From assembly GCF_007559335.1 (NCBI RefSeq), contig NZ_VMBG01000001.1, forward strand, positions 186,001-250,000: a stretch of DNA of 64,000 nt, written 5' to 3'. A program made the translations under genes and the position numbers. This DNA is from Rariglobus hedericola. Its GTDB lineage: Bacteria > Verrucomicrobiota > Verrucomicrobiia > Opitutales > Opitutaceae. Positions within the stretch are counted from its first letter, which is position 1; each line of letters begins with the position of its first letter. The notes under the pieces were generated by a model. That model was not told the origin of the DNA. It did not search any database and saw nothing but the letters and a program-made list of their open reading frames with translations. This document shows, one piece after another, positions 31,051 through 43,681 of this stretch.

Positions 31051-32271
31051 TTAAGGCCAGCGTGGATCGCGCCACAGTTCGCGACCCTGGCGATAAGTGC
31101 CGAGGACATCGGCGGGCGTCACACGCGTGAGCACGCTTGCAATGATGTGGCGCGTGGCTCGCAAGTGGGGCGCATGGAAATCGAGCACCACAAAATCGGC
31201 CGGCAGCCCGCGTTCGAGGTAACCGTAATGATCGCCGCCGAGGAGCGGGCGGATGTTGCTCGTAGCCATTTTTAAAATGGCGCTGGGATCAGGCGAGAGG
31301 GCGTCTCCAAACTGGGACTTGGCGAGTTTGTAGGTGAAATCGAGTTCGGGGAGCAGCGAAGGTGAATTGAGCATGCCGTTATCGGTGCCGAGCAGGAGAT
31401 TCACACCGGCGCGAAGCAGCGCGGCGACGGGAGGGAGCGGCAGGCCGAGGCTGGCGTTGGCGCGCGGATTGATCGCGGCGGTTTTCCCGGAGCGTGCGAG
31501 CAGGGCGATCTCGTCGGAGTTGGCGACGGTGAGGTGAACGATGAGGTCGGCGTCGTAGACCTCGATGGCGCGGATGAGATCGCCGCGTCCGGTGATGGCG
31601 TGCGAGCGGTCGCGGTAGCCGGCGCTTTCGAGGCAGTGGATGGCACGGATTTTTTTCGCGGCGGATGTAGCGGTGCGAATTTCACGCCAGGCAACGTCGG
31701 TGAGATCGTTCATCGTGCTCTCGGAAAAACCGTCGGCGACGGCGAGCATGGCGTCCAGTTCAGCGCGGGCTGAGGCGGGAAGCGGCGCGGTGTTGGCGTC
31801 CAGATCAGCGGCGGTGAACGGCGGCGAATCGAATTGGTTGAGGATGATTGATTCGACGCCGGTGGCCTCGGAGGCCTTGCGCAGGAGCCGTGCTCCGTAG
31901 GCGCCTTGCTCGCGAAAATCGAGATGGGCGATCACGCCGGTGCGCGCCATGTAACCGAGGTGGGCGACGAGATGCGGGAGGTGGGTTTCCTCGGAGAGCT
32001 TGGCGAGTTCCCGGTATTTATAACCGGCGGGACGAAAAAACGCCTCTTCAAGTGTGAGGCCGGTGGCGCCGTCGGGCAGGGCGCTGTCGCCCATGTGGGT
32101 GTGGCCGTTGTAGAGACCGGGAATGATGACGAGCGCGCCGTTGTCGATCTGCCGGCAAGGTTCGCCGAGATCCAGGGCGGTGATCGTGTCGGTTTCCCAA
32201 GCAAAACGATGGCACCGATGCGGCGCCAGATCGGGGCCGTGCAGGACGATGCAATCGCGGATCTCGGGCAT
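31051..32271 (-). CDS. Amidohydrolase, deaminase/chlorohydrolase type
   Basis: Metal-dependent amidohydrolase of the TrzN/SsnA/guanine deaminase-like group. The N-terminal HxH metal site is GLYNGHTHMGD, further ligand candidates are His in RAIHCLESAGYRD and LIVHLTVANSDE, and the catalytic Asp is in LLLGTDNGML. The block NSDEIALLARSGKTAAINPR with a following LG-PLPPV resembles nucleobase-deaminating members. Last gene of a five-gene minus operon and 15 bases after the phosphoribosyltransferase gene. In that context deamination or ring opening of a heterocyclic base is a reasonable proposal, but the substrate is not readable. Confidence 0.82.
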   Translation of the reverse strand: MPEIRDCIVLHGPDLAPHRCHRFAWETDTITALDLGEPCRQIDNGALVIIPGLYNGHTHMGDSALPDGATGLTLEEAFFRPAGYKYRELAKLSEETHLPHLVAHLGYMARTGVIAHLDFREQGAYGARLLRKASEATGVESIILNQFDSPPFTAADLDANTAPLPASARAELDAMLAVADGFSESTMNDLTDVAWREIRTATSAAKKIRAIHCLESAGYRDRSHAITGRGDLIRAIEVYDADLIVHLTVANSDEIALLARSGKTAAINPRANASLGLPLPPVAALLRAGVNLLLGTDNGMLNSPSLLPELDFTYKLAKSQFGDALSPDPSAILKMATSNIRPLLGGDHYGYLERGLPADFVVLDFHAPHLRATRHIIASVLTRVTPADVLGTYRQGRELWRDPRWP

Positions 32272-32286
32272 GATGTGCGGCGACCC

Positions 32287-32847
32287 TTAGTAACTCGTGT
32301 CGCGGGCGGTGTAGATGACGCGGGTGTTCATCAACAGGTCGCCGTGATCGCGGAGTCCGTAGCCGACGAGCCATTCTTTGCCGGCGAAAGTAAAGCCGGT
32401 GAGGTCGGGTGTGTGCAGGGAATCGGGCCGCACGCGGTAAACCATGCTGACGGAGCGGACTGAACGGGCGCCTTGGGCGAGCAACTGGCCGGCGGCTTCC
32501 TTAAAGGTGCGGCCGCTGTCGCAGATGTTGTCGAAGAGCACGATGTCGCGACCGGCGAGCTTGGTGCTCTGCCAGTCGATCTCGATGTTATCGAGGGGTT
32601 TGTTGGTGTTCTTGTCGTAGGAACGCGCGCGGCAGAAGGCGGGCTCGACCGATTGGCGCATACGCAGGAGCAAATCGGAGAAGAAAAACGCCCCACCGCG
32701 CAGGAGGCAGATGCAGAGCAGGAGCTTGCCGGTCTCGGCTTTGGATTCGGCGGCCCACGTGTCGAGTTGCGCGGACAGGATGACCAGTTGTTCTTCGATC
32801 GCCTCGGGCGGATACAGCAAGTCGAGATGCGCAGGAATGGTGCTCAT
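32287..32847 (-). CDS. Hypoxanthine-type phosphoribosyltransferase
   Basis: 186-residue type I phosphoribosyltransferase; expected to join a base to PRPP giving a nucleotide. The PRPP-binding loop is IVLFDNICDSGRTFKEAA, near residue 100; the two acidic residues of the usual loop (ED or DD before I-D-T-G-T) appear here as DN, a variant. RGGAFFFSDLLLRM is the pyrophosphate-binding hook. The protein is not a clear Apt, Hpt or Upp. Six bases separate it from the SIS gene upstream. Its place beside a deaminase-like and a GTP-cyclohydrolase-like gene suggests nucleotide formation as an activation step. Confidence 0.82.
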   Translation of the reverse strand: MSTIPAHLDLLYPPEAIEEQLVILSAQLDTWAAESKAETGKLLLCICLLRGGAFFFSDLLLRMRQSVEPAFCRARSYDKNTNKPLDNIEIDWQSTKLAGRDIVLFDNICDSGRTFKEAAGQLLAQGARSVRSVSMVYRVRPDSLHTPDLTGFTFAGKEWLVGYGLRDHGDLLMNTRVIYTARDTSY

Positions 32848-32853
32848 GGGATT

Positions 32854-33924
32854 TCAGGTGTCGGGACAAAAGCCGTAGAGAAGATCGTCGCGGCCCTTGC
32901 CGGGCCAGTTCACCTGGTCGACGCGCAGGTGTTTCATGACGTCGAAGACGAGGGCGTTGAGCGCGGCTTCGAATCCAAAAATCGAATACAAGGCGGGCGC
33001 ATCGACGCAGATGACGAAGGCGCCGAGTCCGGCGTCGCGCAGCATGCGCACGCTGCGATCGACCATCTCGGCTTCCATGGCGGAGCCGCCCTGCAAGATG
33101 ATGACCGGCTTCGGGTGGGCATTCATCTGCTGGAAGGGGCCGTGGGCGAATTGCAGGAAGTCGCTGATGGGCGGGCACGGCCAGAACACACCCTCCATGA
33201 ATTTGCAGGCGAGGTTTTGCGCGAAGTCGGAAATGGGCGCGGCGGTGACCAGATTGAAACCCTGCGAGAAGGCGCTGGGCAGACCGATCATCGCGGCGCG
33301 CAGGTCATCGGGCGGCTTGATTTCGAGCAGCGGGAGAATTGTCGCGGCGGTGGGCTGCGGAAAGCGGCAGCCGGCGAAGCGGGCGGCGAACTGAAGGGCG
33401 GCGAGGTAGCCGGCGAGCGGACCGACGAAACGGATGAGCGTGGTGTATTCCTCGGCGAGGGGGAATTCGATGAGTTCGCCTCCGTCATTGAGGATGGCCT
33501 GAAGCAGTTCGGCACGGTCGGCTTTTCCGGCGGCGAGGGCGGCGGCCGGAGTCGTGGCGGTAAACAGAATGCAATGGGCGAAGTCACCGCGACGGTTGAG
33601 CGCGATGCGGGCGTTGGGCGAGACGCCTTGGGAGAAAACGACGAGGGTTTTATCGGCGAATGCTTCCGGCTCGGCGACGGTGAAACCTGATAACGGCAGG
33701 TAGGCGGCGGAGCGGTCGGTGTAGAGATTCAGCAGCATCGCGAGGTAGCGCGCGTGCGCCTCGGAGCTGCCGGTGCCGGTGACGATGAAGCGTCGTGAAG
33801 CCAGCGAGGCGGGGCGCAGCGGAGGCGGCGGCGCGTCCAGCATGCCCGCCAGCACCGAGGGAATACTGGCGAGGCGCTGGCCGAGGAGATCGTGGCCGAG
33901 CGGATCGGCGGTGGAGGTGGACAT
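32854..33924 (-). CDS. SIS-domain sugar isomerase-like protein
   Basis: 356-residue protein with two SIS-like halves, as in the isomerase part of GlmS or AgaS. SRRFIVTGTGSSEAHARYLA (about 43-62) is the sugar-phosphate binding loop of the first half, and KTLVVFSQGVSPNARIAL the second loop; the C-terminal half carries PPISDFLQFAHGPFQQM. The start is ATG 33924 (the longer ORF start is less likely). It probably binds a phosphosugar, for instance a ribose derivative released by the neighbouring enzymes. No glutaminase domain, so not a full GlmS. Confidence 0.78.
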   Translation of the reverse strand: MSTSTADPLGHDLLGQRLASIPSVLAGMLDAPPPPLRPASLASRRFIVTGTGSSEAHARYLAMLLNLYTDRSAAYLPLSGFTVAEPEAFADKTLVVFSQGVSPNARIALNRRGDFAHCILFTATTPAAALAAGKADRAELLQAILNDGGELIEFPLAEEYTTLIRFVGPLAGYLAALQFAARFAGCRFPQPTAATILPLLEIKPPDDLRAAMIGLPSAFSQGFNLVTAAPISDFAQNLACKFMEGVFWPCPPISDFLQFAHGPFQQMNAHPKPVIILQGGSAMEAEMVDRSVRMLRDAGLGAFVICVDAPALYSIFGFEAALNALVFDVMKHLRVDQVNWPGKGRDDLLYGFCPDT

Positions 33925-33947
33925 GCGATGGGGCGGGTGGCGGCAGA

Positions 33948-35507
33948 TCAGTCTTCGAGGAAAATCCACTTCTCGACCTCGATCTTGTGACGGTTGAGGG
34001 CCTCGGCATATTCGGGCTTTTTGACGAGGCTGGTGGGCGAGTTCATCACCATCTGAATCTTGGTGTTCGGGATGTGATGCTTGAGCAGCAGGATGGATGC
34101 ATCGTAGTCACGACTGTCGTAATCGACGCCGATTTTGCGATAGGCCTCGTCGGAGGAGAAAGCCTGCCCGGCGTCGGTCATCATGCGATCGGTGGCGTGG
34201 GCGCCGAAGCCGGCGCCGCGTCCGTCGTTGTGCAGGAGCAGCAAGGCGCCCACACCGTATTCGATGATGTGTTTGACGGAGAGCTTGAGCTTGTCGCGGT
34301 TCTCGACGGTGCGCAGCGGGAAGCGGTTGAAGAGCGATTCGCTGTGCAGGCGCACGACGGGAATCTCGTAGATGCGCGGCTCACCGTGGGTGAGAATCAC
34401 GAAGTCCTGGCTGGTCACGATGTCGTAGTAGACGTGAACGCGGAACCAATACGGCGTGGTCAGCAGCTCGACCACGGGATCGTCGGGATTGTCGTCCTTG
34501 TAGTGGGTGAGGTGGTCGGGATCGATGGTGATGAGAAAGCGATTCTGGCGGATGGCCTTGTAGCCTAGGATGACTGGTCGCGCGCCGCCCATGTAGCGCT
34601 CGAGGGATTTTTTTTGGAAGATCTCGGTGAACTGCGCCTCGGTGACGAGGATCTCGTTGTCCACCGGTTTCATCGGCAGGAAATAACTGGCCGAGTAGAT
34701 AAAGCGCTTGGCGTCGGACAACGCGTAGGGGCGGAAGGGAATGACCGGCTCGGGCGGGAGCGCGCGGCGCACAGACGTGGCGGTCGGGCGGCTGAGGATG
34801 TGGCCGCCGGCAGCCTTCGAGGCGAGGTAGGCGAGGTTGAAGGGGCCGGGCTCGAACTCGAGCGACTCGGTGCCGGCGACGACGATGCCCTGCGATTTCA
34901 AGGCGTTCACCTTGTCGGGGTTGTTGGTGAGGACGATGAACGGTGCGGTGACGTTCAACAAATGGCAGATATGCGAGATGTTGTCGTAGTTGCGGTGGTC
35001 CTTTTGGAGACCCATCGCGGCATAGGCGGCGAAGGTGGAGATCTGGTCGAGCGAAGCCTGCACGAGCATGCGGTCGCGGGCCTTGCCGACGTAGCCAACG
35101 CCGCGGCCTTCCTGCATGAGGTAAAAGAGAATGCCGTCGCCCTTTTCGGAGATGACCTTGAACGCGCCTTCGAGCTGCTGGACACAGTCGCAGTCACAAC
35201 CGCGCAGCGTTTCGCTGGTGATGCACGACGAGTGCAGGCGGGTGTAGAGCGTCTTCGCATTCGCGATGTCACCGTGGGCCATCGCGACGATGTAGTGCTT
35301 GTCGATGATGTCCTGGAAAATGAACGCGCGGAACAAGCCGAAGCGCGTATCAAGCTGGCATTTCGCGATGAAAAGCGTCGTTCCATAGAGCGGACGTTCA
35401 TCGAGGACGCGCGGCGCGAGGATGGCGCCGGTGGCGTGTTGCAGGCGGGCGATCAGTTCTTCGAAGTCAGGGGAGGTGACGGGAGTTTCCGGAGTCAGTG
35501 AGGACAT
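33948..35507 (-). CDS. Tandem GTP cyclohydrolase II-like protein
   Basis: 519 residues containing two GTP cyclohydrolase II-like domains. The first (about 45-250) has everything needed: zinc cysteines in HSSCITSETLRGCDCDC (Cys95 with Cys106 and Cys108 in the usual C-x10-C-x-C spacing), QEGRGVGYVGKARDRML (132-148) and VLTNNPDKVNALKSQGI. The second (about 310-515) keeps the fold blocks VVRLHSESLFNRFP and LLHNDGRGAGFGAHATDRMM but has no zinc cysteines. Canonical RibA is about 200 residues and hydrolyses GTP, releasing formate. No ribB, ribE or ribH accompanies it, so a dedicated, non-riboflavin reaction on a nucleotide is inferred, as for fungal/bacterial URC1. Confidence 0.85.
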   Translation of the reverse strand: MSSLTPETPVTSPDFEELIARLQHATGAILAPRVLDERPLYGTTLFIAKCQLDTRFGLFRAFIFQDIIDKHYIVAMAHGDIANAKTLYTRLHSSCITSETLRGCDCDCVQQLEGAFKVISEKGDGILFYLMQEGRGVGYVGKARDRMLVQASLDQISTFAAYAAMGLQKDHRNYDNISHICHLLNVTAPFIVLTNNPDKVNALKSQGIVVAGTESLEFEPGPFNLAYLASKAAGGHILSRPTATSVRRALPPEPVIPFRPYALSDAKRFIYSASYFLPMKPVDNEILVTEAQFTEIFQKKSLERYMGGARPVILGYKAIRQNRFLITIDPDHLTHYKDDNPDDPVVELLTTPYWFRVHVYYDIVTSQDFVILTHGEPRIYEIPVVRLHSESLFNRFPLRTVENRDKLKLSVKHIIEYGVGALLLLHNDGRGAGFGAHATDRMMTDAGQAFSSDEAYRKIGVDYDSRDYDASILLLKHHIPNTKIQMVMNSPTSLVKKPEYAEALNRHKIEVEKWIFLED

Positions 35508-35540
35508 GGATGATTTTGAAAATGTGGGAATGAGAACGAC

Positions 35541-36341
35541 TCAGCGCGCGGGACGGAGCATCAGGCGGTGTCGTTGGAGGGGCGCCTGATTCCATGCGGA
35601 TTGAAATGCGCTGAGCGTGCCGCAGGCCGATTTTGCGAGGGAGCGGTAAGGGATTTCGAGGACGATCTCAGGGCGATCTGAAATCCAGGGATCGAGCGTG
35701 TAAAGAGCGGGGTTCACCGGCGTGCAGCGGATGGCGTGGCGTTGTCCTGAGCGGTCGGGATGAGTGTGGCGAAGATCACGCGGAACATCGTAGCCCGAGC
35801 AAACGATGAGCGAGAGATTATCGCAACATTGCAAAAACTCAAAACCGCGTTGCAGCGCGGACTGGTCGAGACCGAGTTGGGCGGCCGTTTGTTGCTGCCA
35901 GGCGAGCTGGGCCGAGAGAAAATCCGCGTGCGCCTGGCGATGCTCGGGACGGATGGTGTTCACGTCGGCCTGCTCGGACAGCAAGTTGTAGGTGTGCATG
36001 GACACGAAGATGGCGGCGGCGGGATCGACCGCGGCGACGGCGGCGGTGGCATCGCCCCGAACTTTCAAGTAGGAAGGGAGATCGATTTCTTCGAAGGCGC
36101 TATAAGCACCGACGAGTTGGCGCGTGAAGGCTTCGGGGCGGTTGTCCTTGGTGAGCACGGGCGCGGTATCGCGGGCCAGCCAGCCGTCGTCGTGATGATA
36201 AACGGCGTAGCGAATCGCGTCGTAAGGCTTGGGTGGGGCGAAGCGGTCGTTGCCCCACGCATCCGCAAACTGGCCGGCGACATCGGCGTGATCGGGATGG
36301 GTTACCAATAGCCAATGGGTCGGAGTCTCCTGCCTGATCAT
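35541..36341 (-). CDS. DUF3891 family protein
   Basis: ATG 36341 gives MIRQETPTHWLLVTHPDHAD; 266 residues. The pattern VTHPDHADVAGQFADAWG, YAVYHHDDGWLARDTAP and FVSMHTYNLLSEQ, with paired His and Asp residues, matches the uncharacterised DUF3891 family and looks like an HD-type metal site. The body is mostly helical. First gene of the minus operon: 33 bases before the tandem cyclohydrolase. No experimental function is known to me. A phosphohydrolase role is a guess based on the HHDD motif. Confidence 0.72.
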   Translation of the reverse strand: MIRQETPTHWLLVTHPDHADVAGQFADAWGNDRFAPPKPYDAIRYAVYHHDDGWLARDTAPVLTKDNRPEAFTRQLVGAYSAFEEIDLPSYLKVRGDATAAVAAVDPAAAIFVSMHTYNLLSEQADVNTIRPEHRQAHADFLSAQLAWQQQTAAQLGLDQSALQRGFEFLQCCDNLSLIVCSGYDVPRDLRHTHPDRSGQRHAIRCTPVNPALYTLDPWISDRPEIVLEIPYRSLAKSACGTLSAFQSAWNQAPLQRHRLMLRPAR

Positions 36342-36363
36342 GCGTCGATAAACGCATAATGCG
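36340..36363. promoter_or_regulatory. Inverted-repeat array at the divergent operon junction
   Basis: Three overlapping arms: ATGCGT (36340-36345), ACGCAT (36352-36357) and ATGCG (36359-36363). Arms one and two form a perfect 6-bp inverted repeat; arms two and three form CGCAT-A-ATGCG (36353-36363). The array overlaps the start codon of the leftward DUF3891 gene and lies about 70 bases before the rightward creatininase start. A regulator binding here could control both operons. No regulator gene lies within either operon. Confidence 0.5.
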
Positions 36364-36431
36364 CGCCAAGTGTGCGGCGACACAGGAATGAGGGTAATTC
36401 ATGTTGGCTTTTAATCTGCTAACCAAAGGTC

Positions 36432-37043
36432 GTGCCCCGCACCTCTCCGACTCCATCTCTTTGCATCTGTGATGATGCGACTTTTTTGCCTTGGCGTAGC
36501 TGGATGGAAATCAGCGAGATCGCCGAACGTGAACGTGTGGTTCTGGTGGTGCCGGTCGCGGGATTTGCCGATCACGGGCCGGACCTCCCGCTTGATGCGG
36601 AGGAGCAAATATTAATGCGCGTGGTGAAAGAAGCGTCTCTCCAACGTGGGGAAACACGCCTGCTGGTGGTGCCGCCGCTGCGTTTTGTGACCGGGCCGGC
36701 GGATGGAGCGGCGTTCACGGTCGAGGTGCCGGTGGCGCATGCGTTCATCGATGAGGTCTGTGCGTCGCTGGCGGCGGTAGGTTTTCGACGCGTGGTTTTG
36801 TGCAATGCGAGTCCGTGGAACGAGGAGTTGTGCGATGCGGCGGCGCGGGATATTCGAATCGCGCGGGGACTTCAGATGTTTTGCGTGAATTTGAGTGCGT
36901 TGGAAATCGGGTTCGCGGCGACAGAGGATGCGGAGTTTGCGAAGGCCGGCGGACGGTTGGCGGCGTTGTTCGCGGAGATCGCGGGGCGTCCGGCGCTGGC
37001 GAATGACGGGAAACTTTTAACGATGGAGGCACCTGCCAAATGA
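36432..37043 (+). CDS. Creatininase-family protein lacking metal ligands
   Basis: 203 residues, GTG start preceded by AAAGG. The fold aligns with the creatininase protein downstream, but the metal and catalytic positions are changed: GFADHG (44-49) where the intact protein has GAIEQHG, so the first Glu ligand is Ala; NASPWN in place of NTHGGN; and no HAGExET block. Only the His and a later Asp (DLPLDAEE) survive. The stop overlaps the next start (ATGA at 37040-37043), so stoichiometric production with the intact paralogue is likely. I infer a non-catalytic partner subunit. Confidence 0.7.
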   Translation: MPRTSPTPSLCICDDATFLPWRSWMEISEIAERERVVLVVPVAGFADHGPDLPLDAEEQILMRVVKEASLQRGETRLLVVPPLRFVTGPADGAAFTVEVPVAHAFIDEVCASLAAVGFRRVVLCNASPWNEELCDAAARDIRIARGLQMFCVNLSALEIGFAATEDAEFAKAGGRLAALFAEIAGRPALANDGKLLTMEAPAK

Positions 37044-37819
37044 GCTCGCGCGAACGTTATCTTCCCTCGATGACAGCGGTGCAGATCGCAGCGTTGCCGG
37101 ACAAGGCTTCGGCGCCGGTGATCGTGACCACGGGTGCGATCGAACAGCACGGTTATCATCTGCCGGTCGCGGTGGATTCGCTGATGGGACAGGTGTGGAT
37201 CGAGCGCATCACGGAGGCGCTGCCGGACAACGTGCCGTGTTATATCGCGCCGCCGATCACGATTGGAAAAAGCAACGAGCACGTGGGTTTCCCTGGGACG
37301 CTGATGATTTCGAAGGAAACGTTGCGGATGCAGTTGTTCGTGATCGCGCGGCAGGTGAGCGCCTGGGGTTTCAAGCAGCTGGTGGTCTTGAATACGCACG
37401 GAGGGAATACGTCGGTGCTGATTTATACGCTACGGGAAATCGAGGCGGCGTATGGGCTGAAGACGACGTTCTTGAAACACGGTGTGAAGCTGGAGCCGGA
37501 GTTATCGGCGCAGGAAGACGCGTATGGGTTTCACGCGGGGGAATTGGAGACGTCGTGGCTGCTGGCGGTGGCGCCGCAATGGGTGAAGATGGAACGTGCG
37601 GTGTGCGAGTATCCGGCGCGGTTGAGTGATCCGGGCGAGCTCAGGCCCGAGGCGGCGCCGGCGACGTTTGCGTGGGCTTCGCATGATGTGTCGGCGTCGG
37701 GCGTGATGGGTGACGCGACGGCGGCCACGGCGGAGAAGGGCGAGCGGTGGATTTCACAGATGGTGGCGGGCTATGTGGCGCGCATCACGGAACTGGCTGC
37801 ACCCAAATCGAACCCTTGA
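37040..37819 (+). CDS. Creatininase-family amidohydrolase
   Basis: 259 residues with the full creatininase-type dinuclear metal site: GAIEQHGYHLPVAVD (Glu35, His37, Asp46), NTHGGN (118-123) and FHAGELETS (164-172). The family includes creatininase, the archaeal FAPy-nucleotide deformylase ArfB and MftE. Members open small rings or remove formyl groups from N-heterocycle derivatives. Next to a GTP-cyclohydrolase-like gene, deformylation or cyclic amide opening of a pyrimidine-type intermediate is plausible. The start overlaps the previous gene by 4 bases. Confidence 0.87.
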   Translation: MSSRERYLPSMTAVQIAALPDKASAPVIVTTGAIEQHGYHLPVAVDSLMGQVWIERITEALPDNVPCYIAPPITIGKSNEHVGFPGTLMISKETLRMQLFVIARQVSAWGFKQLVVLNTHGGNTSVLIYTLREIEAAYGLKTTFLKHGVKLEPELSAQEDAYGFHAGELETSWLLAVAPQWVKMERAVCEYPARLSDPGELRPEAAPATFAWASHDVSASGVMGDATAATAEKGERWISQMVAGYVARITELAAPKSNP

Positions 37820-37828
37820 TTCTTTAAT

Positions 37829-38758
37829 ATGCATCATACGCTTGGCTCTGCTCCGTTGGTTCATCGTTGGAATAATGAAATCGCGCCGCGCCTGACGGTG
37901 GCGTCGGGCGACACGGTGACGTTTCAATGCGCGGATTCGAGCGGCTGGCAGGTGAAGCCGGAGTGGACCGCGGCGGATTTCAAGGCGGGGTTCGATCCGT
38001 TGCAGGTGCATGCGCTGACGGGACCGGTGGCGATCGAAGGGGCGATGCCGGGCGACATGCTGGAGATCAAGATCGAGGCGTATCGACATCATGGATTCGC
38101 GTGGACGAGTTTGATTCCGGGGCTCGGTTTGTTGCCGGAGGATTTCCCAAATCATCATTTGATGATTTGGAAACTGGAGGAAGCCGTGACGCGGAGTTTC
38201 CCGGGCGTGACGCTGGATCTGCATCCGTTTGCGGGGATCATCGGTGTGCAACGGGCGGAGACGGGCGAGTTTCGCACGCGGGCACCGGGGGCTTTCGGTG
38301 GGAATCTCGACGTGCGTCAGCTGACGGCGGGGACGACGTTGTTTTTGCCGGTGTTCACGCTAGGCGCAGGCGTGCTGACGGGCGACTGCCATGCGGCGCA
38401 GGGCGACGGCGAGGTCTGCATCAACGGGATGGAAGCGGCTATGGATGTGACCCTGACCTTCAAGGTGCATAAGCAAAAATCGTTGAGCGGGCCGTATGCG
38501 ATTTTTCCGGGCGGGTTCACGCCGGCACGTTATGTGACGAAGCCGTGGCATCTGTTCATCGAGTCGGATGAGAATCCGCGCGAGGCCTGCAAACGCGTGG
38601 TGCGGCGGGCGATCGAGTTCATCGTGGGCCGATTGGGGGTCACCCCTGAGATGGCCTATACGTTGTGCAGCGTTGTGCTGGACCTGAAAGTAAGCCAGTT
38701 GGTAAATGTGCCGACGACGACGATCACGGCGTGTTTGCCCGAGGCGATTTTCGACTGA
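37829..38758 (+). CDS. Acetamidase/formamidase family protein
   Basis: 309 residues of the FmdA/AmdA family, which hydrolyses short amides such as formamide to the acid and ammonia. Characteristic blocks: SGDTVTFQCADSS near the N-terminus, LTGPVAIEGAMPGDMLEIKI, VTLDLHPFAGIIGV, then APGAFGGNLDVRQLTAG and VLTGDCHAAQGDGEVCINGM, the strongest signature. Nine bases after the creatininase gene. It would finish off a formamide- or amide-type product of the upstream reactions. Confidence 0.87.
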   Translation: MHHTLGSAPLVHRWNNEIAPRLTVASGDTVTFQCADSSGWQVKPEWTAADFKAGFDPLQVHALTGPVAIEGAMPGDMLEIKIEAYRHHGFAWTSLIPGLGLLPEDFPNHHLMIWKLEEAVTRSFPGVTLDLHPFAGIIGVQRAETGEFRTRAPGAFGGNLDVRQLTAGTTLFLPVFTLGAGVLTGDCHAAQGDGEVCINGMEAAMDVTLTFKVHKQKSLSGPYAIFPGGFTPARYVTKPWHLFIESDENPREACKRVVRRAIEFIVGRLGVTPEMAYTLCSVVLDLKVSQLVNVPTTTITACLPEAIFD

Positions 38759-38776
38759 ACTTGAAACGAATTTTTA

Positions 38777-38803
38777 AACGCAAAGACGCAAAGGCGCGAA
38801 GAA
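38777..38803. repeat. Dispersed 27-bp repeat, copy 1
   Basis: AACGCAAAGACGCAAAGGCG followed by CGAAGAA. A second copy with only A-to-G differences lies at 41349-41375, on the same strand inside the same gene cluster. Here it fills part of the gap between the formamidase gene and ridA. This internally repetitive sequence type is common in several bacterial genomes. Confidence 0.7.
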
Positions 38804-38816
38804 CCTGAAAATCACT

Positions 38817-39281
38817 ATGCCGATCATCGAAGCCAAACTGAAGGAGCTGGGGTTGACGTTGCCGGCGGCTCCGGTGGCGGGCGGGAGCTATCTACCGCAT
38901 CGCATTAACGGGAACACGTTGATCCTCGCAGGAGTGATCAGCGTGAGGGATGGCGTGATGACGCATGTCGGGCAGGTGGGCGCGGGCGTGCAGACGGTCG
39001 AGACGGGGATCGCAGCGGCGCAGGTGTGCGCGCTCAACGTGCTGGCGGCGATCAAGGGCGCGCTGGGGGATCTGGATCGCGTGAAGGAGTTTTTGTATGT
39101 GGGCGGCTACGTGAACGCGGTCGCGGGGTTTGCGGAGAGTCCGCAGGTGATCAACGGCGCGAGCGACCTCTTCGTGAAACTCTACGGTGACGCCGGTAAA
39201 CATGCGCGCGCGGCGATCGCGGTGGCGGGACTGCCGAAGAATGCTACCGTGGAGATTCAGGTGAATGTCAGTTTTGTTTGA
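38817..39281 (+). CDS. RidA family reactive-intermediate deaminase
   Basis: RidA proteins hydrolyse enamines and imines released by PLP enzymes or pyrimidine-ring cleavage; RutC of the uracil Rut pathway is one. The trimer-forming barrel is recognisable: LILAGVISVRDGVMTHVGQV, CALNVLAAIKGALGDLDRVK, and the end HARAAIAVAGLPKNATVEIQ, in which the Arg corresponds to the catalytic Arg105 of E. coli RidA. 154 residues, about 25 longer than E. coli RidA at the N-terminal side. Sits between formamidase and amidase genes. Confidence 0.88.
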   Translation: MPIIEAKLKELGLTLPAAPVAGGSYLPHRINGNTLILAGVISVRDGVMTHVGQVGAGVQTVETGIAAAQVCALNVLAAIKGALGDLDRVKEFLYVGGYVNAVAGFAESPQVINGASDLFVKLYGDAGKHARAAIAVAGLPKNATVEIQVNVSFV

Positions 39282-40563
39282 GCGCATGACGTTCGCCGAC
39301 TGGCAACGACTCTCGCCGGCCGAAGTGGCCCGCACGCTTCACGCGAAGGCGGATGCGTTGCGGCCCGGACAACGCGAGGCGGTGTTCGCGATGCTGGCGT
39401 GCGAGGAGGAGATCGCGGGGCGGTTGGAACGTATCGGCGAAGGAGTGACGGCGAATCCGTTGCTCGCGGGGGTGCCATTTGTGGTGAAGGACGTTTTTGA
39501 TGCGGCGGGATGGCCGACGAAGGCGGGTTCTACTTTTTTGGATGAGGAGCGTCCGCGGCCGGAAGCGGATGGGGTGCTTGTGAAGACACTGCGCGAGACG
39601 GGGGCGGTGTTGGCGGGAAAGACGCACCTTCATGAGTTTGCTTACGGAATCACCGGGGAGAATCCGCATTACGGCTACGTGGAGCATCCGCGGTTGCCCG
39701 GACGGACTTCGGGCGGGTCGAGCAGCGGGAGCGCGGCGGCGGTGGCGGCGGGCGTGGTTCCGCTGGCGTTTGGGACGGATACGGCGGGATCGATACGGGT
39801 GCCGGCGGCATTTTGCGGACTGTTTGGTTTTCGGATGGCGCCGCATCATCCGTGGATCGCGGATGCGTTTCCACTGGCGCCGAGTTTTGATACGGCGGGT
39901 TGGTTTACGGCCAACGCAGGTGACATGGCGGCGAGTTTTCAGGCGCTGCTCGGCGTGAAGGCGACGGGGCGGGTCTGGCGTGGGGCCTGGCTGCCGTTTG
40001 GCGATGTCGATACTGAGCTGGTGGCGGCGCAGGCGAGCGCGGCGGCTTCGTTGTGCGGTCCGCTGGAGGCGGAGCTGGCGGATCGGTTGCGGGTGGAGTT
40101 CGCGGAGGCGCCGAAAGCGTTTGGGGCGTTGCGCGGGCCCGAGGCGTGGGCGGTGCATGCGAATTGGGCCGAGCGGCGCAAGGACGCGTATGATCCGGTG
40201 GTCTTTGCCCGCGTTATAGCGGGTCGCGATATGACGGCGGAGGCGCAGGCGGCGGCGAAGGTCGCGCGCGAGCGGCTGATCGCGGCGTTTGGGGCGGTAT
40301 GGGAGCGGTATGATTTTCTGGTGCTGCCGGCGACGCCGTGCGTGGCGCCGGTGAAGGCGGATTGCACGCAGGCGACGCGGGACCGGATTTTTCAGCTGAC
40401 CACGCCGGTGAGTCTGGCGGGGTTGCCGGCGTTGACGCTGCCGGTGGCGTTGCCCGGTGGTTTTTCAACGGGTTTACAGATGGTGGCGCCGACGTGTGAC
40501 GCGCCGGTGTTTGCCGACGTGCTCGCTCTTACTTATGAAAATCATCCGACATCTCACTGCTGA
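39265..40563 (+). CDS. Amidase signature family enzyme
   Basis: 432-residue hydrolase of the amidase signature (GatA/AtzF-like) family with the Ser-Ser-Lys triad: Lys in FVVKDVFDAAG, then RTSGGSSSGSAAAVAAG and TDTAGSIRVPAAFCG containing the cis-Ser and nucleophilic Ser. The start at 39265 overlaps the 3' end of ridA by 17 bases; AGGTGA immediately precedes it, and ATG 39286 is an alternative. It may release ammonia or urea-type fragments such as allophanate or carbamoyl products. Confidence 0.88.
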   Translation: MSVLFERMTFADWQRLSPAEVARTLHAKADALRPGQREAVFAMLACEEEIAGRLERIGEGVTANPLLAGVPFVVKDVFDAAGWPTKAGSTFLDEERPRPEADGVLVKTLRETGAVLAGKTHLHEFAYGITGENPHYGYVEHPRLPGRTSGGSSSGSAAAVAAGVVPLAFGTDTAGSIRVPAAFCGLFGFRMAPHHPWIADAFPLAPSFDTAGWFTANAGDMAASFQALLGVKATGRVWRGAWLPFGDVDTELVAAQASAAASLCGPLEAELADRLRVEFAEAPKAFGALRGPEAWAVHANWAERRKDAYDPVVFARVIAGRDMTAEAQAAAKVARERLIAAFGAVWERYDFLVLPATPCVAPVKADCTQATRDRIFQLTTPVSLAGLPALTLPVALPGGFSTGLQMVAPTCDAPVFADVLALTYENHPTSHC

Positions 40564-41335
40564 AGGTCCGGGGTGGGCGGCGTTGCAGGCCGATGGTTCG
40601 GCTCGGGTGATCGAGGGAGATATGCTGGGCGCGTGGTCGGTGACGGAGCGCGTGGTGGCGGTGGGTGAATTGCTGGCGCCGGTGGAGCCGGTGACGATCT
40701 TTGGGATCGGGCTGAATTACCGGAAACACGCGGAGCAACTCGGGTTGGCGTTGGTGGAGCGTCCGCTGGTGTTTATGAAGAGCGGGAACACCGTGCAGCG
40801 TCCGGGCGGGGTGATTGAGATTCCGCGGACGCTGGCGAGCGAGGCGGTCGATTATGAAGGCGAGCTGGCGGTGGTGATCGGAAAGCGCTGCAAGAATGCG
40901 ACACGGGAGAATGCGCTGTCATTTGTGCTGGGATACACGGTGGCGAATGACGTGTCGGCGCGCGACTGGCAGTTCAAGCTGGGCGGCGGACAGTTTTGCC
41001 AGGGGAAGAGCTTCGATACGTTTTGTCCGTTGGGGCCGGTGCTGGTGACGGTGGATGAACTCGGTGACGCGGGGGCGCTGAAGCTGGAGACGGCGGTGAA
41101 CGGCGTGGTGAGGCAGGAAGGCAGCACGGCGGACCTGATTTTTGATGTGCGGGAGCTGATCGTGTTTTTGAGTGCGAGCAAAACGCTGCTGCCGGGCACG
41201 GTGATCCTTACGGGAACGCCGGGCGGGGCGGGGCACACGATGAAACCGCCGGTGTATTTGCAGACGGGGGACGTGGTCAGCGTGACGATCGAAGGGATCG
41301 GAACACTAACGAATGCGGTGACGGAGGAGAGCTGA
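40535..41335 (+). CDS. Fumarylacetoacetate hydrolase family protein
   Basis: ATG 40535 lies inside the end of the amidase gene (29-base overlap). 266 residues. FAH-fold signatures: FGIGLNYRKHAEQLG, VDYEGELAVVIGKR with the metal-binding Glu-x-Glu, YTVANDVSARDWQ, GKSFDTFCPLGP and TGTPGGAG. These enzymes cleave C-C bonds of, or decarboxylate/isomerise, beta-diketone-like acids. As the last enzyme of the operon core it could process the carbon skeleton left after nitrogen removal. Confidence 0.88.
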   Translation: MKIIRHLTAEGPGWAALQADGSARVIEGDMLGAWSVTERVVAVGELLAPVEPVTIFGIGLNYRKHAEQLGLALVERPLVFMKSGNTVQRPGGVIEIPRTLASEAVDYEGELAVVIGKRCKNATRENALSFVLGYTVANDVSARDWQFKLGGGQFCQGKSFDTFCPLGPVLVTVDELGDAGALKLETAVNGVVRQEGSTADLIFDVRELIVFLSASKTLLPGTVILTGTPGGAGHTMKPPVYLQTGDVVSVTIEGIGTLTNAVTEES

Positions 41336-41348
41336 ACCGGCAGGGTTT

Positions 41349-41375
41349 AACGCAGAGACGCAGAGGCGCGGAGAA
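41349..41375. repeat. Dispersed 27-bp repeat, copy 2
   Basis: AACGCAGAGACGCAGAGGCG followed by CGGAGAA, matching copy 1 at 38777 except for three A-to-G changes. It lies in the 154-base gap between the FAH gene and the RibD-like gene, followed by further GC-rich repetitive sequence. Confidence 0.7.
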
Positions 41376-41489
41376 GATGCCGGTTAACCGCGGAGAGCGG
41401 CATCGTTTGTTTCCACACATGAGCGGGCGGCAGCGGAGATAAACGCGGGGGCGCGTGAACTTTTTGGGCGCTTTGGGTTCCATGCGTAA

Positions 41490-42182
41490 ATGAAACAACC
41501 GCATATTTCCTGTGTGATGATGACCTCGTTGGACGGCCGCATCCAACAGAAGATCTGGGGGCTGCCCGAAGACGAGGATCTGTTCGAAGACGTGGCCAAA
41601 AAAATCCCGTGGGATGCTTGGATCGTGGGGCGGGTCACGATGCAGGGCTTCACGGAGACCAAACCGCGTCCGCCGCGTCGCGGGCGCTTCACGGTGCCGT
41701 CGGGGGATTTCGTCGCGGACTACGACACCAAGACCTTCGCGGTCGGACTCGATCCGCATGGGAAACTGAAATTCAAAACCAACCGGGCTGATAGCGAACA
41801 TATCATCTCCGTGGTCACCGAGCGCGCCACGGCCGAGCACTTGGATTATCTGCGTTCGAAAAACATTTCCTACATCATCGGCGGCAAGCGCGACATCGAC
41901 CTAAAGCTCGTGGTCCGTAAGCTCGCGAAGCTTTTTCCGATCAAGCATCTGTCGGTGCAGGGCGGCGGGAAGATCAACGGTTCGTTTCTCAAGGCCGGGC
42001 TCATCGACGAATTGCACCTGATACTTATGCCGCTGGCCGATGGCACGGTCGGCACGCCGACACTCTTCGACGTCGAAGAAGGCTACTCCCGCCGCAAGGC
42101 CACGCATTTCCGGCTTAAGTCATCCAAGCTCATCAAGGGCGGTGCGCTGTTGCTTAAATACCAATCGGCTAGGAAAAGATAG
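41490..42182 (+). CDS. RibD C-terminal/dihydrofolate reductase-like protein
   Basis: 230 residues. The reductase fold of the RibD C-terminal domain is shown by HISCVMMTSLDGRIQ at the start, DAWIVGRVTMQGF, ISYIIGGKRDIDL and HLSVQGGGKINGSFLKAGLI followed by DELHLILMPLADG. RibD reductases use NADPH to reduce the ribosyl chain of the GTP cyclohydrolase II product. A stand-alone reductase in the same cluster as a GCHII-like gene is suggestive, though 154 bases and a repeat separate it from the FAH gene. Three bases before the channel gene. Confidence 0.85.
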   Translation: MKQPHISCVMMTSLDGRIQQKIWGLPEDEDLFEDVAKKIPWDAWIVGRVTMQGFTETKPRPPRRGRFTVPSGDFVADYDTKTFAVGLDPHGKLKFKTNRADSEHIISVVTERATAEHLDYLRSKNISYIIGGKRDIDLKLVVRKLAKLFPIKHLSVQGGGKINGSFLKAGLIDELHLILMPLADGTVGTPTLFDVEEGYSRRKATHFRLKSSKLIKGGALLLKYQSARKR

Positions 42183-42185
42183 CGC

Positions 42186-43037
42186 ATGACCGCCAAGCAC
42201 ACTTCGACCCAGGTGGCGGCGGAGGAAAAGCCGCTCGGCAGCGGTTGGCGCGAGCGCTGGCACGAGGTCATCTTTGAGGCGGATACGCCGTGGGGAAAAC
42301 GCTTCGATGTCGCGTTGCTGGTTCTCATTTTACTCAGCGTGCTGGCGGTGTGCTTGGAAAGTGTGCGCGAGCTTCGCGAAACCCATGGTTTAACGCTGCG
42401 CGCGATTGAGTGGGTCTTCACGGGCTTGTTCACCTTGGAATACGGCGCGCGGCTCATCAGTGTGCGGCGGCCACTGCGTTACGCGCTGAGCTTTTATGGC
42501 CTCGTGGACCTGCTCGCGATTCTGCCGACTTTCCTCGTTTATTTTCTACCCGGATCGCAGGCGTTGCTGGTGATCCGTGCGCTGCGGTTGCTGCGGGTTT
42601 TCCGGATTATGAAACTCGCGCACTTCGTCGGCGAAGCGCAGCTGCTGGGGGCGGCGATGCGGGCCAGCATCCACAAGATTGTCATCTTCATCGGCGTGGT
42701 GCTTTCGATTGTGCTGATCTTTGGCGCGCTGATGTATGTGATCGAAGGCGAGGAAAACGGGTTCACCAGCATTCCGGTCTCGATCTATTGGGCGGTGGTC
42801 ACGCTCAGCACGGTGGGCTTTGGGGATATTGTGCCGCACACTGTGCTCGGTCGCGTAGTCTCCGCGATCCTGATGCTGATGGGTTACGCGATCATCGCCG
42901 TGCCCACGGGTATCGTCACGGTCGAGCTGAGCGCTGCGACCCGCGCCGCCAACAACACCCAGTCGTGTCCGTCGTGCGGTGCCAGCGACCACGATAACGA
43001 CGCGCGCCACTGCAAACACTGCGGCACGAAACTGTAG
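42186..43037 (+). CDS. Six-helix voltage-gated potassium channel-like protein with zinc ribbon
   Basis: 283 residues. Helices S1-S4 include an Arg-patterned voltage-sensor-like segment LLVIRALRLLRVFRIMKL, and the pore carries the K+ selectivity filter in TLSTVGFGDIVPHT (about residue 210). The C-terminus is an unusual zinc-ribbon: CPSCGASDHDNDARHCKHCG, two CxxC pairs. Eukaryotic-like or KvAP-like bacterial channels normally have no such end. It begins 3 bases after the RibD-like gene but its functional tie to that cluster is unclear. Confidence 0.88.
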   Translation: MTAKHTSTQVAAEEKPLGSGWRERWHEVIFEADTPWGKRFDVALLVLILLSVLAVCLESVRELRETHGLTLRAIEWVFTGLFTLEYGARLISVRRPLRYALSFYGLVDLLAILPTFLVYFLPGSQALLVIRALRLLRVFRIMKLAHFVGEAQLLGAAMRASIHKIVIFIGVVLSIVLIFGALMYVIEGEENGFTSIPVSIYWAVVTLSTVGFGDIVPHTVLGRVVSAILMLMGYAIIAVPTGIVTVELSAATRAANNTQSCPSCGASDHDNDARHCKHCGTKL

Positions 43038-43075
43038 GTGGATGGGCGTCGGCGAAGGGTTGATACTGCGGACGA

Positions 43076-43681
43076 TCAGACGCGGGCAAAGGCGATGAGA
43101 GCGGTGAAGTCACCTGCGTCGGCTTTGCGGAGTGCGGCGAGGTAGAGGGTGCGAGTGTCGTTTTTTGCCTCCAGCTCGGCTCCGCCGCCCCACGTGAAGG
43201 TCGGCCGTTCGAGGGCAACGGCGAGGCGGTCCGCAAGCAGGCGGGCGTGGCGACCGTTGCCATTGCGCCAAGGGTGGATGGCCACGAGCCCGTGGTGCAG
43301 CCGCACGCAGAGTTCGTCGGGCGCAAAGGCGGTGTGTTCATGCCAGGCGCGGGCGTCGGCAAGAAGTGAATACAATCGTGTTTCGACCTGTGCGGGCGGC
43401 ACGCCGAGGTTCAGTTCGCAGTCACGAATTTTACCCGCCCAGCGCCAGACACGGCGAAACATGCGCCGGTGCAATTCGCGCACGAAGAGATGATCCAGGA
43501 GATCGGCCGGTGCGAGACGACGGCGGGGCGCGAAGAGCCAGCGGCGGGCTTCCAGGATGTTGGCGCGTTCCAGCAAGTTGAGTTCTGCCAGAGTGGCGAC
43601 GCTGGGGATGATAAACCGTTCCTCGTCCGGGGAAACGGGCGTGGTGCCGGAATCGTCTCGAGAAGGAGGGAGCAGGCTCAT
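43076..43681 (-). CDS. Fic-domain mobile mystery protein B
   Basis: Fic-fold AMP/NMP transferase, 201 residues. The catalytic motif is IHPWRNGNGRHARLLAD (fits HPFx(D/E/N)GNGRxxR with Phe replaced by Trp); the catalytic His is intact. The order and pairing with the HTH gene match the mobile mystery protein A/B pair, a module often found on mobile or variable regions. The start overlaps the HTH stop in ATGA (43678-43681). Role as a toxin is inferred from the fold and pairing. No inhibitory (S/T)xxxE(G/N) helix was seen in this protein. Confidence 0.85.
   Translation of the reverse strand: MSLLPPSRDDSGTTPVSPDEERFIIPSVATLAELNLLERANILEARRWLFAPRRRLAPADLLDHLFVRELHRRMFRRVWRWAGKIRDCELNLGVPPAQVETRLYSLLADARAWHEHTAFAPDELCVRLHHGLVAIHPWRNGNGRHARLLADRLAVALERPTFTWGGGAELEAKNDTRTLYLAALRKADAGDFTALIAFARV

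Follow-up and report, generated by a model that had tools for sequence, protein, structure and literature searches.

The window analysed here, a stretch of 64,000 nucleotides from Rariglobus hedericola (Opitutaceae; contig NZ_VMBG01000001.1, positions 186,001 to 250,000 of the forward strand), harbors two divergent operons that include the gene for GCH2x2, a tandem GTP cyclohydrolase II (GCHII)-like protein. With the exception of the last gene, this gene set is a real, recurring and co-occurring system. On balance, we regard it as a purine degradation system that operates on the nucleotide level, probably with hypoxanthine or inosine monophosphate (IMP) as the substrate; we infer this substrate, the reactions, their order and the products.

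Gene content of the locus

All open reading frames named in the original prediction for this DNA were found where it had placed them. Leftward from 36383, DUF3891, GCH2x2, SIS, PRT and AH are encoded in this order, while CREdeg, CRE, FMD, a RidA-like protein, AMD and FAH follow rightward from 36432, succeeded by a RibD-C-like gene. Pfam detected amidohydrolase, phosphoribosyltransferase, two GTP_cyclohydro2, DUF3891, two creatininase, FmdA_AmdA, RidA-like and amidase domains among the window proteins, and NCBIfam yielded FAH-family matches as well as weak RibD-C-like matches under the cut-off. Coordinates and family matches thus bear out the predicted pair of divergent operons with the families assigned to them:

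31051-32271, minus strand: AH, deaminase-type amidohydrolase of 406 amino acids (Pfam; closest NCBIfam model PRK07213, under cut-off)
32287-32847, minus strand: PRT, HPRT-like phosphoribosyltransferase with the phosphoribosyl pyrophosphate (PRPP) loop FDNICDSGRT (Pfam, NCBIfam, alignment)
32854-33969, start likely near 33924, minus strand: SIS, double-SIS phosphosugar deaminase/isomerase/deglycase fold (predicted fold, genome co-occurrence)
33948-35507, minus strand: GCH2x2, tandem GTP cyclohydrolase II-like protein of 519 amino acids (Pfam, alignments)
34872-35366, minus strand: GCH2x2 domain 1, zinc-site and catalytic residues retained, Arg146 at the Tyr105 position
34026-34448, minus strand: GCH2x2 domain 2, GCHII-like region without the zinc cysteines
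35541-36383, start likely near 36341, minus strand: DUF3891 protein (Pfam, confident predicted model)
36432-37043, plus strand: CREdeg, degenerate creatininase-family partner (Pfam, alignment)
37040-37819, plus strand: CRE, intact creatininase-family hydrolase (Pfam, NCBIfam, alignment)
37829-38758, plus strand: FMD, acetamidase/formamidase-family hydrolase (Pfam, NCBIfam)
38817-39281, plus strand: RidA/YjgF-family protein, enamine/imine deaminase-like (Pfam)
39265-40563, plus strand: AMD, amidase-signature hydrolase, AtzE-like (Pfam, NCBIfam)
40457-41335, start likely near 40535, plus strand: FAH, fumarylacetoacetate-hydrolase-family enzyme (NCBIfam)

The tandem protein GCH2x2

A genome scan for GCH2x2 returned 106 candidates, the best 80 of which were retained as loci for comparison (loci and genomes are numbered L and G, respectively, the window genome being G000). 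Pfam recognizes two PF00925 stretches in the protein. In domain 1, Cys95, Cys106 and Cys108 together with Asp170 and Arg172 correspond to Cys54, Cys65, Cys67, Asp126 and Arg128 of E. coli GCHII (2bz0) and are kept in 73/73 homologues, i. e. the window protein and those from 72 of the 80 loci with called proteins of more than 480 amino acids. The position of E. coli Tyr105, in contrast, is occupied by arginine in all 73 (Arg146 in the window protein). Tyrosine is found there in all three solved GCHIIs that were aligned, the alignment is gap-free around this position, and the surrounding motif changes from RAYALQ in GCHII to RDRMLV in GCH2x2. A Streptomyces GCHII with a Tyr-to-Met exchange at this position reportedly stops at the formylated (formamidopyrimidine, FAPy) product. 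Domain 2 has lost the zinc cysteines, yet its sequence is conserved (alignment of 31 rows including the window), as would be expected if it were the inactive partner in a dimer.

The RibA equivalog domain model TIGR00505 gave 138.4 bits with GCH2x2 and its cut-off of 205.85 was not reached, whereas the broader RibA subfamily model NF001591 was passed (181.3 bits, cut-off 148). The tandem architecture and the invariant arginine support the earlier view of a GCHII-like protein other than ordinary RibA. A plasmid search with GCH2x2 matched 195 records, none over more than 80% of its length, and the 20 listed were RibA/RibBA or came without a named gene. The window genome also carries a second, broken GCH2x2 copy with pieces in different frames (L101, 8958-10124; G000:C1:482958-484124), which adjoins Amidohydro_2 and RidA-like genes; intact copies are so placed in relatives, for example in L037 and L029.

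Recurrence and gene neighborhood

GCH2x2 proteins of the 80 loci are 51-90 percent identical and derive from records titled Verrucomicrobiota, with one Kiritimatiellae and a few labelled 'bacterium' or PVC. When the phylum was sampled evenly, full-length matches occurred in 10/145 genomes, while another 122 of the 145 gave partial matches, mostly over domain 1, as RibA or RibBA would. Neighbors were counted within approximately 10 kb, and these counts are lower bounds as many contigs are short. Among the 80 loci, SIS was found near GCH2x2 in 44, RidA in 20, AMD in 19, PRT in 13 and DUF3891 in 10. These counts hold for E 1e-5; at 1e-6, SIS drops to 43/80 and AMD to 17. SIS lies directly downstream of GCH2x2 on the same strand in 39/80 loci.

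The remaining company of GCH2x2 is largely of purine type. Recurrent neighbors include an adjacent-type permease (25 loci), a TonB receptor (21), NUP, ADA-type and Amidohydro_2 proteins (16 each) as well as adenine deaminase (8), and the permease gene is located directly upstream in 20/80 loci. The nearest matches to one examined member of this permease family are AZG1/AZG2 from plants, while one member of a second permease family is closest to xanthine/urate permeases. Six gene kinds were scored as purine-related, namely adenine/guanine-type permease, xanthine permease, ADA-type, adenine deaminase, NUP and PNP_UDP_1. At least one of these lies near GCH2x2 in 37/80 loci and at least two in 21/80, which are raw counts without a random-window baseline; including PRT as a further purine kind raises them to 42/80 and 22/80. 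A purine substrate is therefore likely from gene company.

The predicted genes do recur together; a shared order, however, was seen only in L021 and L022, and the other loci among the 80 have the genes shuffled, distributed over separate places or present in part. Particularly informative is L095 (Puniceicoccaceae), in which a single 21-kb stretch encodes AH, CREdeg, CRE, FMD, AMD, RidA, GCH2x2, SIS, PRT, NUP, permease, ADA-type protein and adenine deaminase. Both L095 and L098 (Cerasicoccus maritimus) contain most window genes in a different order, and in the GCH2x2 tree they stand across the root from the window, although this root is drawn by midpoint only and L095 forms a long branch. DUF3891, AH, the paired creatininases, FMD, AMD, RidA and FAH constitute a second module that accompanies GCH2x2 in distant lineages. 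It partly stands alone in one genome, G025, where DUF3891, AH, CREdeg, CRE, FMD and AMD are grouped (L125) about 2.4 Mb from that genome's GCH2x2.

The original prediction had also counted the RibD-like reductase (41490-42182), which is probably not a member, as no homologue was found in the 80 loci; an adjacent Kv channel gene was likewise rejected as a member (0/80). Both lie beside the cluster at 41490-43681. A nearby Fic-like gene has a homologue in L022 only, and the channel and Fic labels derive from sequence alone. In L034 (8994-10043) and 15 other loci, an Amidohydro_2 protein is encoded beside GCH2x2, in some cases with an NMT1-type ABC transporter. These may represent a second kind of GCH2x2 locus, with Amidohydro_2 in place of the creatininase/AH module. 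CTP synthase is encoded downstream of GCH2x2 in eight loci (L067, L069, L078-L081, L083 and L085); in most of these, genes for ADA-type, NUP and TonB-receptor proteins lie upstream. L027 and L036, titled Akkermansia muciniphila, group with Opitutaceae-titled rows on the GCH2x2 tree, and their titles may be wrong.

Accompanying enzymes

SIS gave no match to Pfam or NCBIfam. Its label is nevertheless borne out by the predicted fold, a two-SIS-domain model with a mean predicted local distance difference test (pLDDT) score of 91.4, whose best PDB matches are phosphosugar isomerases and deaminases including NagB-II, GlmS and the FraB deglycase (E down to 2.9e-12). The family alignment comprises 35 of 43 candidate proteins plus the window. 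SIS has an HGP motif like that of GlmS-type isomerases. An apparent SIS-AH gene fusion in L023 was dropped, as its open frame crosses unknown bases of a scaffold gap.

PRT is best matched in NCBIfam by an HPRT model (E 1.2e-18; uracil model, E 0.0093), and its family alignment displays the PRPP-binding loop as FDNICDSGRT and variants. The HPRT equivalog TIGR01203, with a cut-off of 150 bits, was not reached by the window protein (67.5 bits) or that of L095 (95 bits). Near GCH2x2 in L096, a Pribosyltran/UPRTase-matching protein is found. A plasmid search with AH matched 20 records, and the 10 listed were all haloarchaeal. The DUF3891 model is confident (mean pLDDT 87.7) and showed no PDB fold match under E 0.27; the word itself is absent from the open-access literature searched, and the alignment of this family covers 7 of 10 candidate proteins plus the window.

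The proposed pair of a degenerate and an intact creatininase was confirmed by alignment: His and Glu positions, presumably the metal ligands of the creatininase family, are missing from CREdeg and kept in CRE. CREdeg homologues occur in L021, L022, L095 and L125. With the ArfB model, CRE gave no more than a marginal match (E 0.0086, 15.9 bits; equivalog cut-off of 180 bits not reached). According to PMC9478397, BrbF, which was first annotated as a creatininase, deformylates a FAPy nucleotide, and CRE could for this reason deformylate here. CRE and CREdeg would then, like the two domains of GCH2x2, make up a second pair of an active and a degenerate partner.

Genome-wide co-occurrence

Among 56 related genomes, 23 encode GCH2x2 (three with fragmentary matches: G006, G009 and G023) and 33 do not; as these genomes are related, the p values below refer to non-independent samples. 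SIS is present in 17/23 GCH2x2 genomes versus 0/33 others (p=1e-9; by genus 8/11 versus 0/33, p=9e-7), including G002, G008, G012 and G026, where it lies apart from GCH2x2. Strong DUF3891 matches were obtained in 9/23 and 2/33 genomes, respectively (not counting G020, whose match was weak and partial at E 1.1e-4). In the two GCH2x2-negative genomes (L123, L124), the DUF3891 gene adjoins TonB/ExbB-type or housekeeping genes, without the module around it.

The distribution of xanthine dehydrogenase markers is only suggestive of an anti-correlation with GCH2x2. At E 0.001, neither XdhB nor MoCoBD_2 was matched in the window genome. XdhB matches over or near the cut-off occurred in 0/23 GCH2x2 genomes versus 6/33 others (p=0.037), and contiguous MoCoBD_2 matches in 1/23 versus 11/33 (p=0.0098; by genus p=0.24). 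Xanthine dehydrogenase-type tests within the family were stronger, for example 0/22 versus 6/14 (p=0.0015).

Proposed pathway

Known purine degradation mostly involves free bases and usually proceeds via xanthine dehydrogenase. For the gene set described here, ring-opening of a purine nucleotide is the simplest reading because of the purine neighbors, the HPRT-like transferase and the zinc-type GCHII domain. The original prediction of a pathway in which an N-heterocyclic base is converted to its nucleotide and then ring-opened fits in its logic, while the unspecified heterocycle is narrowed to purines by the neighbors. In relatives, deaminases and proteins of phosphorylase type are encoded next to GCH2x2, and these may supply hypoxanthine from adenine or adenosine. 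PRT would then join the purine base to PRPP, and the zinc site of GCH2x2 domain 1 could open the nucleotide's imidazole ring by hydrolysis to yield a formylamino- or amino-pyrimidine ribotide, with domain 2 as a putative zinc-less partner resembling an inactive dimer half. CRE/CREdeg might either deformylate this product, in the manner of BrbF and ArfB, or open the pyrimidinone. To judge from its deglycase/deaminase fold, SIS would, like deglycases, split ribose 5-phosphate off the ribosylamine, and AH may remove an amino group. Finally, FMD, AMD, RidA and FAH could strip formamide, amide and enamine nitrogens from the three remaining carbons. If carbon 2 leaves as formamide, as a formamidase-family gene suggests, this would favor a hypoxanthine over a xanthine skeleton, a weak argument given the breadth of the FMD family.

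In its full form, the proposal is possible, though with somewhat less than an even chance: an undescribed route that consumes hypoxanthine in the form of IMP, with GCH2x2 as a tandem GCHII-derived cyclohydrolase of IMP (or xanthosine or guanosine monophosphate) and with SIS, the creatininases, the formamidase-like enzyme and DUF3891 finishing a dismantling independent of O2 and molybdenum that replaces xanthine dehydrogenase in Verrucomicrobiota. In open-access literature, screened by title and start of abstract and with most subscription journals outside this scope, no description of this gene system was found. If true, the use of the nucleotide first, followed by a riboflavin-type ring opening, would make the route a purine twin of the URC pathway. 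It would also explain the use of adenine and hypoxanthine by lake, soil and marine Verrucomicrobiota without recognizable xanthine dehydrogenase, and would provide a first role for DUF3891 and for the unnamed SIS family.

Several observations weigh against purine degradation. An activity is known for none of the set members, and PRT and AH fall under every NCBIfam cut-off listed for them. Some members lie near GCH2x2 in few of the 80 loci, i. e. AH in 7 (L021-L024, L093, L095 and L098; further homologues in L125, L128-L130 and L135), CRE in 6, FMD in 4 (further homologues in L125 and L128) and FAH in 3. In 43/80 loci, all six kinds of purine gene were missing, and 36/80 showed no SIS, many of these contigs being short. 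FMD belongs to a broad family (a plasmid search matched 1178 records, and the 10 listed were all acetamidase/formamidase), so that formamide is a guess. The nucleoside hydrolase in L093 best resembles pyrimidine-preferring ones, and NMT1-type transporters occur at 8/80 loci. Genome-wide, adenine deaminase shows no association with GCH2x2 (13/23 versus 16/33, p=0.6), and XdhB over the cut-off alone gave 0/23 versus 4/33 (p=0.14; by genus, p=0.56, which falls to 0.31 on inclusion of the two near misses). Finally, the zinc motif is absent from the GCHII half of the window genome's RibBA. GCH2x2, the sole zinc-type GCHII detected in this genome, could serve riboflavin formation.

Alternative explanations

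The last point leads to an improbable alternative, in which GCH2x2 is the riboflavin GCHII that replaces the zinc-less RibBA half and its neighbors reflect incidental purine salvage. The zinc motif of RibBA was read in 21 stretches, which cover 13 of the 14 GCH2x2-negative Opitutaceae (G031 was left out). Zinc cysteines are missing from the GCHII half in 19/20 Opitutaceae read, with G027 retaining the motif, and among these are 7/7 GCH2x2-positive ones (G000, G004, G010, G014, G016, G017 and G032), as this explanation would predict; moreover, G000 possesses lumazine synthase. However, 12/13 GCH2x2-negative Opitutaceae share the same zinc-less half and all 13 have lumazine synthase, so that GCH2x2 is not a general replacement of RibBA. 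G068 combines GCH2x2 with a second domain-1-matching protein (E 4.4e-37) that, by this match alone, is probably ordinary RibA/RibBA. Furthermore, the arginine at the Tyr105 position is invariant, and neither the window cluster nor the recurrent neighbor families tested revealed a riboflavin gene. A riboflavin role is thus probably not what keeps GCH2x2. The RibBA loci concerned are L102 (G000:C2:776500-779500), L103-L114 and L117-L122, and lumazine synthase is nonetheless present.

It is also unlikely that the set encodes a pyrimidine pathway, i. e. a URC variant that opens the ring of uridine monophosphate or a different pyrimidine nucleotide. Pyrimidine fragments could suit RidA and FAH-like enzymes, and the L093 nucleoside hydrolase is nearest to pyrimidine types, but the permeases, deaminases and phosphorylase-type proteins nearby are of purine type, as is the transferase. 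In addition, PF12471 (GTP_CH_N), the domain that marks URC1, gave no match in GCH2x2 and was matched in 0/145 phylum genomes at E 0.001, with a weak control in which it was found in 1/14 named genomes. GCHII-like enzymes start several specialized pathways, and a reductase-like gene adjoins the window cluster. Both would suit biosynthesis of a purine-derived metabolite of the pteridine, deazapurine or C-nucleoside type instead of degradation. This is quite unlikely given that the cluster mostly comprises hydrolase and deaminase families, that permease and deaminase genes recur, and that the reductase-like gene is not conserved. That unrelated operons have become neighbors by chance would agree with a gene order kept only in the nearest relatives, but is highly improbable given that the genes lie together again and again in distant lineages (L022, L095, L098), and in light of the co-occurrence of SIS with GCH2x2 even where unlinked, and the separate module in L125.

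Comparison with known systems

The gene set shares features with several characterized enzymes and pathways. GCH2x2 resembles RibA in its homologous domain with the zinc cysteines and the catalytic Asp and Arg, and differs in the tandem architecture, the arginine at the Tyr105 position and the neighborhood, in which no riboflavin genes were seen. CRE belongs to the creatininase family, as which BrbF had first been annotated (PMC9478397). Unlike BrbF and ArfB, it is encoded with a degenerate partner, and its match to the ArfB model is marginal. The predicted fold of SIS matches the double-SIS enzymes NagB-II, GlmS and FraB at a probability of 1.00; in contrast to these, SIS is tied to GCH2x2, has no Pfam or NCBIfam match and shares 10-18 percent identity with the listed matches. 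With the oxidative xanthine dehydrogenase route, the set has the presumed purine substrate class in common, while the window genome differs in its lack of XdhB and MoCoBD_2 matches at the threshold given above.

An analogy in logic is provided by the uracil degradation pathway URC (URC1-6 of Lachancea kluyveri and bacterial homologues), in which URC1 is a GCHII homologue. Common to both are a phosphoribosyltransferase, a GCHII homologue and the logic of ribosyl release. PMC7530994 describes this logic as conversion of the base to its ribonucleotide by a phosphoribosyltransferase with later release of a ribosyl fragment. Differences are the absence of GTP_CH_N from the GCH2x2 set, the tandem GCHII with its zinc-less second half, the HPRT-like transferase in place of a uracil-type one, the purine-type neighbors and the other downstream enzymes. 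Hence, while the gene set fails the URC features tested, it would, if read as a purine degradation system, be the purine counterpart of URC.

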